Shown piece after piece: positions 5,476-14,275 of a stretch of DNA of 35,560 bases. The stretch is taken from assembly GCA_016278485.1 (NCBI GenBank), contig JADQBT010000028.1, positions 1 through 35,560 of the forward strand, written 5' to 3'. Every line of letters begins with the position of its first letter. Position 1 is the stretch's first letter. The translations under genes were made by a program, and so were the position numbers. Source of the DNA: Halanaerobiales bacterium. Its GTDB lineage: Bacteria > Bacillota > Halanaerobiia > Halanaerobiales > Halanaerobiaceae. The notes under the pieces were generated by a model. The model did not search any database. It was not told the DNA's origin and saw only the letters and a list, made by a program, of their open reading frames with translations.

Positions 5476-5901
5476 ATGAGTAGTAAAAAACTATATAGAT
5501 CAAGAGAGGATAGAATTATAGCAGGAGTTTGTGCTGGATTGGCAGATTATTTTAATATTGATACAACATTTGTTAGATTAGCATTTATATTTTTGTTCTT
5601 AGTAGAAGGAGTTGGGGTAGTTGCCTATTTGATAGCATGGGTTATTATACCAGAACAATCTCAACAGTTAATAGTAGAAGGAAGTAGTCAGGCAGAGGCT
5701 AACTTTGCAAACGAGGAATATGAAATGAATTCTAAAAATATAGATAGAAATAGAGTATTGGGATATATACTTATTATTCTAGGCTTAGTATTTTTGCTTG
5801 ATAGATGGTTACCTGCAATCTACTGGGATAAGTATTGGCCAGTTTTATTGATAATAGTTGGAGGTATTATTTTAAGCAGGGGGTTTAAAGAGAATGAATA
5901 G
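5476..5901 (+). CDS. PspC-domain membrane protein with C-terminal DUF5668-like segment
   Basis: The first 60 or so residues are a PspC domain (KLYRSREDRIIAGVCAGLADYF ... FIFLFLVEGVGVVAYLIAWVIIPE), with the typical arginine-rich start and a membrane helix pair. After a polar linker (about residues 65-90) follows a second hydrophobic part, GYILIILGLVFLLDRW ... YWPVLLIIVGGIIL, resembling the membrane region of LiaF/LiaI-type proteins (DUF5668). PspC and LiaF/LiaI proteins sense or buffer cell-envelope stress at the membrane. An AAGGGGG site lies before ATG 5476. The gene overlaps the next one by 8 bases, so the two are translated together. No sensor kinase or response regulator is adjacent. Confidence 0.85.
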   Translation: MSSKKLYRSREDRIIAGVCAGLADYFNIDTTFVRLAFIFLFLVEGVGVVAYLIAWVIIPEQSQQLIVEGSSQAEANFANEEYEMNSKNIDRNRVLGYILIILGLVFLLDRWLPAIYWDKYWPVLLIIVGGIILSRGFKENE

Positions 5902-6193
5902 AGATTATAGAAATAAGATAATAATGGGCTTATTTTTAATCTGTACTGGTCTGCTTTTTCTTTTAAGTACTACTGGCATCATCAATTTAAGAATATGGTT
6001 AGTAATTGCAAAATTTTGGCCAGTTTTAATTATATTTATGGGATTAAATCTTCTGTTAGTTGATACTAGGTTTTGGTGGCTATTACTCATTATATTAATA
6101 ATAATTTTTATGGGATTTGGATATTATTTAGATTCTTTGCCTGGCTGGCAGGATAGAATTATTCCCTTTTATAATTATCAATGGAATTTGTAA
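5894..6193 (+). CDS. Small membrane protein, LiaI/DUF5668-like
   Basis: A 99-residue protein with three hydrophobic segments (about residues 9-27, 34-54 and 61-77). The pattern GLFLICTGLLFLLSTTGII followed by FWPVLIIFMGLNLLL matches the repeated unit of LiaI/LiaF-like membrane proteins, and is similar to the C-terminal part of the preceding gene, suggesting duplication of this module. It overlaps the PspC gene by 8 bases; its GCAGGGGG site lies inside that gene. The C-terminal 20 residues are aromatic-rich and probably exposed. A role in envelope stress response is inferred from family and context only. Confidence 0.75.
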   Translation: MNRDYRNKIIMGLFLICTGLLFLLSTTGIINLRIWLVIAKFWPVLIIFMGLNLLLVDTRFWWLLLIILIIIFMGFGYYLDSLPGWQDRIIPFYNYQWNL

Positions 6194-6254: not shown

Positions 6255-6479
6255 TTGTATTTAATCAATAGTAGTAATAATATCATTAATATTTTAGTTC
6301 TAGCATTAATATTTTGTATGCTGATCAGTTTCTTTTATCCGGTAGTGGCTGAGGCTGCTCTTGGGGACTTTTTAAGTGATAACAAGGGTGGCTTATGGAC
6401 TATAGTTAAAGGTCTATTAATGTTCTGGCTATTGAATTACTTGGGTAATATAAATGATCAGCCTGAGCCGATTAATTGA
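6255..6479 (+). CDS. Small hypothetical protein with signal-peptide-like N-terminus
   Basis: A 74-residue ORF starting with TTG, supported by a strong AAGGAGGGG site nine to ten bases upstream. Residues 10-34 look like a signal peptide or membrane helix (IINILVLALIFCMLISFFYPVVAEA), with AEA-A as a possible cleavage site. A short polar loop (LGDFLSDNKGG) and a second hydrophobic helix (about residues 48-63) follow. I do not recognise a family. It stands after the PspC/LiaI-like pair and may belong to the same envelope cluster, or have its own promoter at 6203-6232. It ends before a bidirectional-looking hairpin. Confidence 0.6.
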   Translation: MYLINSSNNIINILVLALIFCMLISFFYPVVAEAALGDFLSDNKGGLWTIVKGLLMFWLLNYLGNINDQPEPIN

Positions 6480-6517
6480 ATCACCGGGGGAAAATAATAA
6501 AAAAATCTGGTAAGTCT

Positions 6518-6551
6518 AAAGAGCTAATGTATAATTTAGCTCTTTTTTTTT
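6518..6551 (+). terminator. Intrinsic terminator between convergent genes
   Basis: AAAGAGCTAA (6518-6527) pairs perfectly with TTAGCTCTTT (6536-6545) over an eight-base loop, followed by a run of T to 6551. It ends the 6255-6479 transcript; its right arm contains the stop codon of the convergent gene. Confidence 0.85.
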
Positions 6552-6958
6552 ATGATAGTCATAATTCCAGCTAGTCTTTCTGATGTCTGGCCATCATATA
6601 AATTAAAATATAACTTTTCTTTATAGAAATATTCTTTTTTAATTTTAAATATCTGCAGATGATCAGGATTTTTTTTGGCAACCATCACAACTTCATGTCC
6701 TCTATACATAACCATATGGACTTTAGCTTGATAAATAAGCAGGGCTAATTGATCATCATTTATTTTAAAATTAATATTTCTTCCTGTATATCTAGCAATT
6801 TTTTCATTTAACTTTTCAGTTTGATTTGCATGATATAAATCAATAGTAATATTTTTTGTATTAAAATTGACTGGAAAAGATTGGTTGCTATATTGAGAAA
6901 GGGGTATATATTGTACTGCTGGATAGGGAAATATTTTGTCTGAATAACCAAATGGCAT
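6536..6958 (-). CDS. Hypothetical protein, no recognised family
   Basis: A 140-residue soluble protein. A GTG at 6967 is in frame, but it lies within the ribosome binding site AAGAGGTGATTA, so the ATG at 6958 (protein start MPFGYSDKIFPYPAVQY) is the better start. The N-terminal third is rich in tyrosine, proline and aromatic residues. The rest looks like an alpha/beta fold with TGRNINFKINDDQLALLIYQAK, VHMVMYRGHEVVMVAKK and a lysine-rich end. There is no signal peptide, membrane segment or catalytic motif I can name. It is transcribed alone, divergent from the SPOCS/LysM genes; a shared sporulation role would be a guess. Confidence 0.65.
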   Translation of the reverse strand: MPFGYSDKIFPYPAVQYIPLSQYSNQSFPVNFNTKNITIDLYHANQTEKLNEKIARYTGRNINFKINDDQLALLIYQAKVHMVMYRGHEVVMVAKKNPDHLQIFKIKKEYFYKEKLYFNLYDGQTSERLAGIMTIIKKKS

Positions 6959-7062
6959 ATTAATCACCTCTTAATATTTTATTAAGATAGCCATTAAAAT
7001 GTGTAGAGTAGTAATAATTGTTATTTTTTGATATATAAATAATAGTGACCGGTATAATCTTC

Positions 7063-7089
7063 ACAATCCGGTTGGTTGTGCATATATTA
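7063..7089 (+). promoter_or_regulatory. Possible late-sporulation (sigma-K-like) promoter of the SPOCS/LysM genes
   Basis: CATATATTA at 7081-7089 fits the CATANNNTA -10 pattern known for sigma-K, with AC at 7063-7064 separated by 16 bases, the known spacing. It lies 39 bases before the start codon. Because the pattern is short and AT-rich, chance agreement is quite possible. Confidence 0.3.
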
Positions 7090-7127: not shown

Positions 7128-8723
7128 ATGGCAATTAGTTTTAATGAAGAATTGATAAGAGTAGAATATGTGATTGGTGAAGAAACAATAACCGAAACCG
7201 TGAGCGGACAGATTACAGTGCCAGATAATAAGCCTGATATTTTAAGGGTGGTAGATGTAACAGCCAATATAATAAATATAACAACAGAAATTGAGGAAGA
7301 AGGAGTAGATATAACTGCTGATATTGAGGCAGGTGTTATTTACGTTGCAGATGTAGATGAGCCGTATTTCAGGCAACCAGTACATTTTACAGAAGGAACT
7401 TTTCAGTTCACAAATTTTGTAGATATACCAGATGCAGAGATTGGTATGAATGTATTTACAGATTTAAAAGTCAGAAAAGTTACTTATGAAATGATAGATG
7501 AAAGAACTGTTGAAGTTACAGTTGTTATTTCTAAATTTGTTAAAGTAACTGAATACCGACAAATTACTGTCATTACTGATCTGACTGGTATACCTGAAGA
7601 CAATATCACTTCAGAGCTATTGAGAATTGAGGATGTTGTCGGCGAGGATATGGCGACAACTGTTATCAGCGGTAGGATTGAACTTCCGGAAGGAAAACCA
7701 CCAATTGAAAGGATCTTAAATGCTCAGGCAGAGTTACTCAATTTAGTCACTGAAATTACTGAAGATGGAGTTATTGTAACTGGTTCAGTTGAAGGTGGGG
7801 TAATTTATGTAGCGGATGTACCTGAACCCGCTTACCAACAACCGGTTCATTTCCTTGAAGGAACCTTTAACTTTAGTGAAGCATTTGATATTCCTGGTGC
7901 AGAAGAAGGAATGTCAGTTTATGCAAATACTATTATTAGAAAAGTAACTTATGATTATATCGATGAAGATACAGTTGAAGTTAATGTAACAATACAATTT
8001 TTTGTTAAAGTCACTGAACCAAAACAGGTTGAAGTAATAATTGATATTATGAGTGACCAAGTTGAAGTAGAGCGAGAACTTCTTCGTGTTGAGGATGTTG
8101 TTGGTGAAGATACTATTTTTGAAACAGTTTCAGGTAGATTAAATGTTCCAGCAGCTAAACCTGATATTGAAAGGGTTATAGAAGCTACTAGTAAAATAAT
8201 TAGTACTGAAACAACTACCGAAATCGATGGTGTAATGATTGAAGGTGAGATAGAGGGTAGAATACTCTATGTGGCAGATGTAGAAGATCCATATTTGCGT
8301 CAACCAGTTCATTTTACTGAAACAGAATTTAATTTTGATAATTTTGTAGATATTCCAGGTACTGAAGCTGGTATGAATGCGCATACAGAAGTAAAAGTTC
8401 AGAAAACAAATTATGATTTATTAAATGCTAGAACAGTTGAGATCACTTCTGTTATACGTAAATTTGCTAAAGTTACAGAGTTTAGACAATTAGAAATTAT
8501 TGTAGATTTGGTTGTAGTTTCTGAGGTAACTGAACCAGGTGTTTGCCCACCATCATATGTGGTTTATGTTGTTCAACCAGGAGATACTCTTTGGAAAATA
8601 TCTAGACGCTACCGTACTACAGTTGATGCAATCATAGAAGCCAATCCAAATATTAATCCTGATAATTTACAGGTAGGCCAAAAAATATGTGTACCAGGCG
8701 ATATCATAAGACCAAAGGGTTAA
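7128..8723 (+). CDS. Spore-coat-assembly-like protein: three SPOCS (DUF3794) repeats plus C-terminal LysM
   Basis: A 531-residue acidic protein made of three similar units starting near residues 8, 163 and 317: ELIRVEYVIGEET, ELLRIEDVVGEDM and ELLRVEDVVGEDT. Each continues with a VSG-or-ISG strand, a P-x-xKP turn and YVADV-x-(E/D)-P-x-x-(R/Q)QPVHF. This is the SPOCS/DUF3794 domain. A LysM follows at about 485-525 (YVVQPGDTLWKISRRYRT ... NLQVGQKICVP), expected to bind peptidoglycan. The architecture resembles SipL of Clostridioides difficile, a SpoVID counterpart that binds SpoIVA and tethers the coat to the forespore. There is no signal peptide, fitting synthesis in the mother cell. ATG 7128 is chosen over upstream TTG 7107 because GAGAGGAGG lies between them. 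A similar gene follows. Confidence 0.85.
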   Translation: MAISFNEELIRVEYVIGEETITETVSGQITVPDNKPDILRVVDVTANIINITTEIEEEGVDITADIEAGVIYVADVDEPYFRQPVHFTEGTFQFTNFVDIPDAEIGMNVFTDLKVRKVTYEMIDERTVEVTVVISKFVKVTEYRQITVITDLTGIPEDNITSELLRIEDVVGEDMATTVISGRIELPEGKPPIERILNAQAELLNLVTEITEDGVIVTGSVEGGVIYVADVPEPAYQQPVHFLEGTFNFSEAFDIPGAEEGMSVYANTIIRKVTYDYIDEDTVEVNVTIQFFVKVTEPKQVEVIIDIMSDQVEVERELLRVEDVVGEDTIFETVSGRLNVPAAKPDIERVIEATSKIISTETTTEIDGVMIEGEIEGRILYVADVEDPYLRQPVHFTETEFNFDNFVDIPGTEAGMNAHTEVKVQKTNYDLLNARTVEITSVIRKFAKVTEFRQLEIIVDLVVVSEVTEPGVCPPSYVVYVVQPGDTLWKISRRYRTTVDAIIEANPNINPDNLQVGQKICVPGDIIRPKG

Positions 8724-8755
8724 TTTGAATTTAAAAGAGGAAAGGGGGGTGAATA

Positions 8756-8842
8756 ATGTCCGACCGCAAAGATTCTAAAAAGAAAAAAGTAAATATTAAT
8801 CCAGAAAAAATCAAAAAAATAATTAAAATTAGGAAAGCATGA
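8756..8842 (+). CDS. 28-residue basic micro-ORF between the two SPOCS/LysM genes
   Basis: ATG 8756 follows an unusually strong GAGGAAAGGGGGGTGAATA ribosome binding site; the ORF ends at TGA 8840-8842. The peptide starts MSDRKDSKKKKVNINPEKI and ends KIRKA: nearly half lysine or arginine, with no hydrophobic segment. It sits 32 bases after the first SPOCS/LysM gene and 17 bases before the second, whose own ribosome binding site (TAGGATCAGG) is weak. It may therefore be a real small basic protein, perhaps spore-related, or a leader that couples translation to the downstream gene. No family is recognised and the evidence is the binding site and position only. Confidence 0.5.
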   Translation: MSDRKDSKKKKVNINPEKIKKIIKIRKA

Positions 8843-8859
8843 TGCGGTAGGATCAGGTT

Positions 8860-10383
8860 ATGCCAGAACAATTACAGATTAGTGAAACAATTGGTAGTAG
8901 AACGGTTGATACTGAGGTAGTTGAAACAGTAGGAATTCCCTCAAGAATGCCCCCTGCTGAAAGAGTAGTAAGTGTGAATGCACGGGTAGAGATTACTGAT
9001 ACATCAGTAGGAAATAATTCTGTTGTATTTGATGGAATTATTAGATCAAGTATTTTTTATGCGCCGATAGAAGATCCTTCCAATGTAGTAAATCTACGCA
9101 GGACTTTTGATTTTACTGAAAGAGTTTCGTTTACTGGTGCGAGGCCTGGTTTTGATGCTACTATTGAAGCACTTATATCTGATATTGATTTTTATCTGAT
9201 AGATGAAAGATTAATAGGTGTTGAATTTGTAGTCGACAGTGAAATAGAAGTGACTGCTCCAGATAGAATTGAGTTTATTACACAGCGACCTGAACTTGAT
9301 ATTAGAACTCAAAGAGTAAGGATAAGAAGGGAAGTAACAGAAAGGAATTTTGTTAGAACATTAACTGCTACTGAAAGAATTCCTGCTAGCTCTGAAGATA
9401 TCCAAGAAATAATAAGTGCGGATTCCTCAGTACAAATAGTGGATACCACAACTGAAAGGAATTTAGTAATTATCGAAGGGGTTGTAAGAACCGATTTAAT
9501 ATATAGAGATCAGTCAGACCAATTAGAGTATGTTTCAATTAGATTTCCTTTTAGTGAGGAGTTTAGCGTCAATGGTGTAGTATCAGGTATGTCACCATTT
9601 GTTGATGTTAATGTGATTTCTTCAGAGGCAGAAGAATTAGATGATCGAAGAATTCGTGTGAGCGTTAGAACGGGATTCCAGATATTGGTAATTACTGTTG
9701 AGGAAGTTGATATACCTACTGAGGTGGTAGGAGATGTTGTCTATTTTCCAAGAAGAAGAATAGTTTTTGTAGAAAGAATAGTTGCTGAAGAGTCGACTAG
9801 GATATTGGCACGAGATCAGATTAGTATTCCTGAAGGAAATCCAGATGTAGCAAGAATTGTTAGAACAACTGCCCGGGTAAGAGGTGGCAGTGTTTCCGCT
9901 GAAACTACAGCAGGTGGTGTGATTATTGAAGGTGTTGTAGTGGTGAATGTTATTTATGTAGCAGATTTACCACAACAGCCAGTATATTTTACCGAAGGTA
10001 CAATTCCATTTAGTTATTTTATGGATATTGATCAGGTAACTGACAATATGGATGCTTTTGTGGATGTTGAGGCTATTGAAAGTAGTGGTAGAAGAGTAAG
10101 TGATACAGAAATACAGGTTAGCGCTAGATTAGATGTTAATCTTATTGTTACTGAAAGAGTTCGTGTATCAGTTATTACTGGATTTGGGGAAGAACCAACA
10201 GTAGATGAGCCAGTAACTGCTCCAGAAGCAGATGATTTTATCACTTATACGATAAGATCAGGAGATACTCTTTATTTAATTGCGCAACGATATGGTGTAA
10301 CTGTTAATCAACTAGCTCAACTTAATAATATACAGAATCCGTCTAATATTGAAGTTGGTCAACAAATCCTGATTCCAAGATAG
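8860..10383 (+). CDS. Second SPOCS (DUF3794) repeat protein with C-terminal LysM
   Basis: A 507-residue paralogue of the preceding gene: three diverged SPOCS units (roughly residues 5-150, 155-290 and 300-450) and a LysM at about 462-506 (TIRSGDTLYLIAQRYGVTV ... NIEVGQQILIPR). The third unit is closest to the upstream gene (VIYVADLPQQPVYFTEGTI). The first two are much more diverged and arginine-rich, losing the YVADV block. No signal peptide or membrane helix. It is likely cotranscribed with the preceding gene and the micro-ORF, and ends at a clear terminator. A role in spore coat or cortex-associated assembly is inferred from the SipL/SpoVID-like architecture; a non-sporulation wall role is the alternative. 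Confidence 0.82.
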   Translation: MPEQLQISETIGSRTVDTEVVETVGIPSRMPPAERVVSVNARVEITDTSVGNNSVVFDGIIRSSIFYAPIEDPSNVVNLRRTFDFTERVSFTGARPGFDATIEALISDIDFYLIDERLIGVEFVVDSEIEVTAPDRIEFITQRPELDIRTQRVRIRREVTERNFVRTLTATERIPASSEDIQEIISADSSVQIVDTTTERNLVIIEGVVRTDLIYRDQSDQLEYVSIRFPFSEEFSVNGVVSGMSPFVDVNVISSEAEELDDRRIRVSVRTGFQILVITVEEVDIPTEVVGDVVYFPRRRIVFVERIVAEESTRILARDQISIPEGNPDVARIVRTTARVRGGSVSAETTAGGVIIEGVVVVNVIYVADLPQQPVYFTEGTIPFSYFMDIDQVTDNMDAFVDVEAIESSGRRVSDTEIQVSARLDVNLIVTERVRVSVITGFGEEPTVDEPVTAPEADDFITYTIRSGDTLYLIAQRYGVTVNQLAQLNNIQNPSNIEVGQQILIPR

Positions 10384-12894: not shown

Positions 12895-13947
12895 ATGAAT
12901 TATAAAATTATTGTTTCCTTAATTTTTGTGCCCTTAAGTTTAGGATTAAATTATTTTTTTGATGGTTCAACTTTAGCATTTTTATCATCAGCTGTTGCAA
13001 TTATTCCTTTAGCAATGCTGGTTACACATTATACTGGACAACTTGCTGATAGTGTTGGTCAAAGTTGGGGAGGTTTAATAAATGTTACTTTTGGCAATAC
13101 AACTGAATTAATCATTTCTTTATTTGCCATAAGTAAAGGTCTTTTAGATGTTGTAAAAGCAGCAATCACTGGTTCAATTCTTATGAATTTATTATTGATT
13201 CTTGGATTAAGTTTTTTTGTAGGTGGCCTAAAATACCGTAGTCAAAAATTTGATAAATTGGTAGCAATAACAAATAGTGCGATGCTGATGTTAGCAGTGA
13301 TTGCGATGCTTATTCCTGCTATTTTTTTCTTTACGTCGGCAAACATTTTATTAGATGTACTTAATATTTTAAGTATTGGTGTAGCAGTAGTCTTATTGAT
13401 AACTTATTTTGCTAGTTTATATTTTACAATGGTAATTCATGAAGCAGAAAAAAAAGCTGCAAATGATGCTGTAACTAATAAAAAGTCAAATAATTTTTCC
13501 TGGCAAGAAGTCATTATGTTATTTTTAGTAACAACTTTTGTGGCTATAGAAGCAAATATTTTAGTAGGGTCTATAGAAGAAATTTCTGTAGAAATGAATA
13601 TTTCACAGGTCTTTTTAGGAATTATTGTTTTACCAATTATTTCAAATGTTGCGGAAAGTTATACGGCAATTAGAATGGCAAGAAATAATAAGATAGATAT
13701 GAGTATTAACATTGCAGTAGGGTCAAGCACCCAAATTGCTTTATTTTTAGTCCCGATATTAATTCTGCTGAGCCATATTATTGGTAATCCTATGAACGTT
13801 CTATTTAGTATTTTAGAAATAACTTCAATTTTTGTATCAGTACTTGCAATTAATATTATCTATTTGCAGGGTAAATCTAACTGGTTGGAAGGAGTCCAAC
13901 TTTGTGCTGCTTATTTAATTATAGCTCTTGCATTTTATTTTGCCTAA
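12895..13947 (+). CDS. CaCA-family cation/proton exchanger (CAX/ChaA-like)
   Basis: A 350-residue integral membrane protein with about ten to eleven predicted helices in two halves. The two alpha-repeat motifs expected for Ca2+/cation exchangers are present: GGLINVTFGNTTELIIS in the first half and LPIISNVAESYTAIRMA followed by INIAVGSSTQIALFLVP in the second, each with its key acidic residue. Such proteins export calcium (or Na+/K+) in exchange for protons. Start ATG 12895 follows a weak TGGTGATTAA site. The 3' end overlaps the convergent L,D-transpeptidase gene by 29 bases. It is not obviously in an operon. The specific ion cannot be stated. Confidence 0.88.
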   Translation: MNYKIIVSLIFVPLSLGLNYFFDGSTLAFLSSAVAIIPLAMLVTHYTGQLADSVGQSWGGLINVTFGNTTELIISLFAISKGLLDVVKAAITGSILMNLLLILGLSFFVGGLKYRSQKFDKLVAITNSAMLMLAVIAMLIPAIFFFTSANILLDVLNILSIGVAVVLLITYFASLYFTMVIHEAEKKAANDAVTNKKSNNFSWQEVIMLFLVTTFVAIEANILVGSIEEISVEMNISQVFLGIIVLPIISNVAESYTAIRMARNNKIDMSINIAVGSSTQIALFLVPILILLSHIIGNPMNVLFSILEITSIFVSVLAINIIYLQGKSNWLEGVQLCAAYLIIALAFYFA

Positions 13948-14275
13948 TAACAATTTGATCTCCAATTCTTACTTTATTATAGACCTGTTCAACATCCTGA
14001 TTATGCATTCTGACACAACCATGTGAAACCGCCTGTCCGATTAACCAAGGTTTGTTTGTACCATGTACACCATGTTGTTGGGGTGTAAATTGCATCCAAC
14101 GGGTCCCCAAAATACCACCTGGTTGGAATATTTTATTAATAATTCTAAAATTTCCAACTGGGGTAGGTGTAGCAGGTTTTCCAATTGCTACAGGATAACT
14201 AGCAATTGCTTTATTATTATTCATAAGGTATAATCGGCGTGGTATTAATGCAATGAAAATACTATAATTTGACAA
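13919..14275 (-). CDS. Minimal L,D-transpeptidase (YkuD domain)
   Basis: A 118-residue protein that is nearly only the YkuD catalytic domain. The active-site pattern is present: HGTNKPWLIGQAVSHGCVRM, with the catalytic cysteine in SHGCVR, preceded by the family stretch YPVAIGKPATPTPVGNFRI. YkuD enzymes make 3-3 peptidoglycan cross-links or attach proteins to the wall. The start is TTG 14275, with a near-perfect AGGAGGTGATTAC site just before it. There is no clear signal peptide (the N-terminus SNYSIFIALIPRRLYLM is only weakly hydrophobic), unusual for an extracytoplasmic enzyme. Divergent from ispE, overlapping the exchanger at its 3' end. Confidence 0.9.
   Translation of the reverse strand: MSNYSIFIALIPRRLYLMNNNKAIASYPVAIGKPATPTPVGNFRIINKIFQPGGILGTRWMQFTPQQHGVHGTNKPWLIGQAVSHGCVRMHNQDVEQVYNKVRIGDQIVIRQNKMQEL

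Follow-up and report, generated by a model that had tools for sequence, protein, structure and literature searches.

The sipL locus and its surroundings

The window (the whole 35,560-nucleotide stretch that we analysed, part of a genome of 2.86 Mb in 39 contigs) carries two adjacent genes, here called A and B, each encoding three SPOCS units followed by a C-terminal LysM domain. Between them lies a micro-ORF of 87 nt (28 amino acids plus a stop codon) with a strong ribosome-binding site, and a small divergent gene, S, lies upstream of A. The features are as follows.

6536..6967, minus strand: gene S, a divergent small gene of about 140 aa, MPFGYSDKIFPYPAVQYIPL..., a conserved neighbour of A
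7060..7089, plus strand: predicted sigma-E/sigma-K-like promoter of gene A, TTCACA-N15-CATATATTA, conserved at 12 of 12 loci
7128..8723, plus strand: gene A, SipL orthologue of 531 aa with three SPOCS units and LysM (Pfam)
7236-7496, 7701-7955 and 8163-8420, plus strand: SPOCS cores of A (PF12673, E 2.5e-16, 2.0e-17 and 1.5e-18)
8565..8696, plus strand: LysM domain of A, residues 480-523 (PF01476, 2.1e-19)
8756..8842, plus strand: micropeptide gene, 28 aa, MSDRKDSKKKKVNINPEKIKKIIKIRKA, net charge +9 (conserved at all 12 SPOCS-bearing loci of the order; coding by pN/pS)
8860..10383, plus strand: gene B, second SPOCS-LysM protein, 507 aa (Pfam)
8956-9198, 9397-9627 and 9844-10080, plus strand: SPOCS cores of B (PF12673, E 2.9e-11, 2.1e-12 and 1.7e-17)
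10246..10377, plus strand: LysM domain of B, residues 463-506 (PF01476, 7.4e-18)

The initial annotation had read three SPOCS units and a C-terminal LysM in each gene, and profile searches with PF12673 (SipL/SPOCS) and PF01476 agree. Pfam places three SPOCS units in A, which starts with the ATG at 7128 (5.8e-51; LysM 2.1e-19), and three in B (2.1e-42; LysM 7.4e-18), and all six PF12673 matches in the whole genome fall within these two genes. The three SPOCS units of A share 43-54% pairwise identity. Compared with them, B reaches only 19-25% in its units 1 and 2 and 26-32% in unit 3, in agreement with the earlier description of A's units as alike and B's as one similar and two diverged. Both proteins are predicted to be very acidic (pI 4.2 for A and 4.4 for B), the SPOCS part of B strongly so. 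AlphaFold models built from ortholog alignments are all-beta with a terminal LysM, and at a mean pLDDT of 81 and a pTM of 0.44 the arrangement of the domains is uncertain. Comparison of A and B with the PDB gave confident matches to LysM domains only, and phage records searched with B returned only the LysM stretches of endolysins and similar proteins.

The genome also encodes SpoIVA (PF09547, 2.7e-117, in a 506-aa frame without stops), Spo0A and SASP genes. With three SPOCS units detected in either protein and spoIVA present, the sequence results give no ground for refuting the initial annotation's basic observation. Elsewhere, the window carries a gene with a SpoIID domain and ORFs that by sequence look like spoVG and spoVT. 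Gene S (MPFGYSxKIFPYPAVQYIPL...) has no Pfam or NCBIfam match over cut-off; counting this genome, 11 of the 12 SPOCS-bearing genomes of the order have it next to A, and so do most other genomes of the class. It is probably an undescribed sporulation gene. Three short ORFs were also observed in the window. In relatives a CAP-domain protein of ~250 aa occupies the place of a 74-aa ORF at 6255-6479 (plus strand), which corresponds to the N-terminal part of that protein alone; similarly short forms are seen in Halothermothrix sp. DTU029 and in a relative. A 99-aa LiaI/LiaF-type membrane protein at 5894-6193 (plus strand) reaches about one third of the ~300-340 aa of its orthologues, and a 118-aa YkuD L,D-transpeptidase ORF at 13919-14275 (minus strand) is without the C-terminal LysM of the orthologues in relatives (180-233 aa).

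Upstream of A, the two promoter boxes (TTCACA at 7060-7065 and CATATATTA at 7081-7089) occur as a two-part motif once in the window and in none of 100 shuffles, and all 12 genomes have both of them in front of A, with slight variation in the first. The −10 box fits the sigma-E and sigma-K consensus known from Bacillus. The suggestion that this box would fit mother-cell expression is thus upheld at the level of predicted promoter type. Among the 11 other SPOCS-bearing genomes of the order, the search we used finds a hairpin resembling a terminator in 9, placed after A and before the micropeptide gene, and most have a CATATA box there as well, so that in these relatives B and the micropeptide gene would seem to form a separate transcription unit. 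Neither signal is seen between A and the micropeptide gene in the window, which leaves A, the micropeptide gene and B as one three-gene unit, probably carried in this species on a single transcript from A's promoter.

Age of the A-B pair and its LysM domains

Protein A shares 57-67% identity with its counterparts in the order (11 further genomes). It occurs throughout the class Halanaerobiia, with gene S as its neighbour in nearly every case. Orthologues of B are present in 17 of 59 Halanaerobiia genomes with scores of 614-762 bits, after which the next match falls to 253 bits. A maximum-likelihood tree of 54 proteins, in which long branches make the deeper joins uncertain, supports a class-wide A clade (99/97) and a class-wide B clade (100/100) as separate groups. 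Judged by sequence and tree, A is the class-wide SipL orthologue and B an ancient SipL paralogue. Because the two clades are separate and each is class-wide, the pair is older than the order, and a recent local duplication is ruled out. The proposal that the pair arose by duplication followed by specialisation therefore stands with respect to paralogy and falls with respect to a local event; the SpoIVA/cortex division of labour that went with it is taken up below.

Within the order, 12 of 38 genomes carry SPOCS genes, and none were found in one genus of this family, probably Halanaerobium, represented by 12 species. A survey of related genomes for tandem order, as the initial annotation had proposed, found A and B side by side in every one of the 12 SPOCS-bearing genomes. 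Other members of the class that possess A, Halonatronum and Natroniella among them, have neither B nor the micropeptide, so these two components are not needed for a SipL system as such. A third SPOCS gene, C, is present upstream in the other 11 genomes of the order, usually past S; in the two copies checked with Pfam it encodes three SPOCS units but lacks a LysM. It has been lost in this genome (window, around 6480-6540). As for other numbers and kinds of SPOCS genes, two relatives (L035 and L036) have two C-type genes each, a class genome (G435, L135 175-5630) has a row of short SPOCS-like genes that represents a different kind of SPOCS expansion, and several consecutive SPOCS genes are also seen in distant Bacillota MAGs.

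In Clostridioides difficile, SipL combines three DUF3794 domains with a LysM through which it contacts SpoIVA directly, and residues W475 and I463 matter for that binding (PMC6436350). The LysM domains of A and B both keep GD[TS][LI] followed by an aromatic residue (W/Y/F) at the position of SipL W475. From these precedents A is likely, and B may plausibly be expected, to have a role in the SpoIVA layer; assigning cortex binding to one of the two finds no support in them.

We nonetheless weighed a division in which one of the two proteins contacts SpoIVA or the coat and the other senses peptidoglycan (cortex or lipid II) in the manner of SpoVID. B is less conserved than A and its SPOCS units 1 and 2 have diverged, as such a division might lead one to expect. 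In this genome, moreover, the LysM of A is basic (pI 9.1) and that of B acidic (pI 4.7), and the acidic LysM of SpoVID binds lipid II (PMC10659427). Across orthologues, however, the difference in charge is inconsistent: the ranges of A and B overlap, with p = 0.014 within the order and a mixed picture in the rest of the class, and we therefore rejected it as proof of specialisation. Both proteins, moreover, retain the aromatic residue as well as the residues of the LysM core. The initial annotation's assignment of one protein to coat/SpoIVA contact and the other to the cortex finds no consistent support in the sequences, and we regard such a split as unlikely.

A conserved micropeptide gene accompanying B

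The initial annotation mentioned a micro-ORF between the two genes in its title only; it is indeed there, at the position given above, and a homologous ORF of 28-37 aa occupies the A-B gap in 12 of 12 SPOCS-bearing Halanaerobiales genomes. Members of the family share a conserved core at the C-terminal end, of the form VNIKPQKIKKIIKIKK. Over the 12 genomes of the order the pooled pN/pS is 0.175, whereas the two shifted frames give 1.37 and 1.20, and the entropies at the three codon positions are 0.40, 0.33 and 1.25. These values establish that the micro-ORF is coding and constrained and rule out a chance ORF: it is a real coding gene under strong purifying selection. A conserved micropeptide tied to a second SipL paralogue is apparently undescribed in the literature searched, and it is the best-supported novelty of the locus.

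When a profile built at the level of the order was run against a 398-genome sample of the phylum, matches were confined to Halanaerobiales; weak phylum-wide matches (E 0.004-0.04, several of them within long frames) were taken as chance. Inspection of weak local matches and widening of the profile brought out relatives in Frackibacter and Orenia, and a limitation of the micro-ORF to the order Halanaerobiales proved wrong. In two genomes of a sister family, Candidatus Frackibacter and G394, the micropeptide gene lies ~150 nt or less upstream of a single-SPOCS gene in the same SPOCS cluster and not upstream of B. In three Orenia-type genomes B is found at a different genomic place, near uvrC-like genes in two of the three, and the micropeptide gene sits directly upstream and overlaps the start of B. 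No micropeptide gene was found upstream of B-like genes in distant Bacillota MAGs.

Altogether, B and the micropeptide occur together in 17 of the 17 genomes with B among the 59 Halanaerobiia genomes, in three different gene arrangements, and the widened profile found no credible copy in the 42 class genomes without B. These genome counts are not independent events; independent support comes from the agreement of presence and absence within two further families and from the joint occurrence at another genomic place. Since the micropeptide is present wherever B is found, it is probably a partner of B.

A different account of the same arrangement would make the micro-ORF a cis-acting leader whose translation sets that of B by coupling, the peptide itself being inert. 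The spacing suits it, for the micro-ORF ends 14-36 nt before the start of B in most genomes of the order and runs into it in Orenia. Conservation of the amino-acid sequence with third positions near saturation nevertheless argues against an inert product, as does the position of the gene in Frackibacter and G394, where it is nowhere upstream of B; we find a leader distinctly improbable.

We also considered whether the micropeptide could replace SpoVM, as a small membrane-surface peptide that draws either SpoIVA or a protein of the SipL type to the forespore membrane. The SpoVM model PF08183 has no match over cut-off in this genome or in any of the 59 class genomes, while the Bacillus subtilis control was matched, and SpoVM has also not been found in some clostridia (Galperin et al. 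2012, PMC3533761). The micropeptide is of similar size, and it is basic and encoded beside genes for likely SpoIVA partners. Against this, the micropeptide shows no similarity to the SpoVM profile (hhalign probability 0.1%), the helical hydrophobic moment of its core is no better than that of shuffles (p = 0.69), short of an amphipathic membrane helix, and it is much less hydrophobic than SpoVM (mean hydrophobicity −0.26 versus 0.19). Neither homology to SpoVM nor a clearly amphipathic SpoVM-like helix is thus supported. Moreover, several members of the class that have SipL but no SpoVM do not have the micropeptide either, so a role as a general substitute is ruled out. Taken together, we hold this possibility to be very improbable.

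A proposed SpoIVA-layer module and its known counterparts

The reading that we favour, and consider rather probable as a whole, is that of a sipL locus in which A is SipL, B is a paralogue acting in the SpoIVA layer and the micropeptide is B's partner. A would be made in the mother cell from the sigma-E-type promoter, would most likely bind SpoIVA on the forespore surface through its LysM, and would help SpoIVA and the coat to encase the forespore. B, encoded on the same transcript here, most likely has its role in the SpoIVA-based basement layer as well. The micropeptide would work with B, probably by binding it, and may help B to dock on or assemble at the forespore surface. Binding is proposed because the SPOCS part of B is strongly acidic and the peptide carries a net charge of +9. 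A peptide so basic beside the acidic A and B fits an electrostatic partner, weakly, since acidic proteins are usual in salt-adapted bacteria. The partner could also be another SPOCS protein, given that the Frackibacter peptide gene adjoins a single-SPOCS gene and not B.

A bolder version, possible but in our view doubtful, is that the micropeptide represents a new, Halanaerobiia-specific class of spore-morphogenetic peptide, dedicated to the second SipL and setting its docking on the SpoIVA layer. If true, this would amount to a lineage-specific basement-layer module in bacteria without recognisable SpoVM. Detailed knowledge of the basement layer of the spore coat comes for the most part from two species, Bacillus subtilis (SpoVM, SpoIVA, SpoVID) and C. 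difficile (SpoIVA, SipL, SpoVQ). A second SipL with its own conserved micropeptide offers a concrete, small target for genetics and biochemistry, of a gene size that annotation easily misses.

Among these known components, SpoVM of B. subtilis is likewise a tiny sporulation peptide (26 aa) linked to SpoIVA, from which the micropeptide differs in having no sequence similarity to it and in not being clearly amphipathic. SpoVQ of C. difficile is a lineage-specific partner of SipL and SpoIVA (PMC8265636); it is a bitopic membrane protein, whereas no membrane segment is seen in the micropeptide. SpoVID of B. subtilis shares with A and B the SPOCS domain and a C-terminal LysM and is described as the functional counterpart of SipL (PMC10659427, PMC6436350), but belongs to a different sequence family: against the SpoVID model spore_VI_D (NCBIfam TIGR02907) the two proteins score 17.9 and 24.4 bits, over the LysM only, with a cut-off of 169.85. 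The closest likeness is to SipL of C. difficile (CD3567), which like A and B has three DUF3794/SPOCS units and one C-terminal LysM (PMC6436350), and the genome studied here encodes SpoIVA alongside two proteins of that architecture. Work on C. difficile describes one SipL, whereas here a micropeptide gene and the paralogue B lie directly downstream, probably on the same transcript. The tandem SipL-type proteins are thus a known type of system with a paralogue added, and the micropeptide is its new component.
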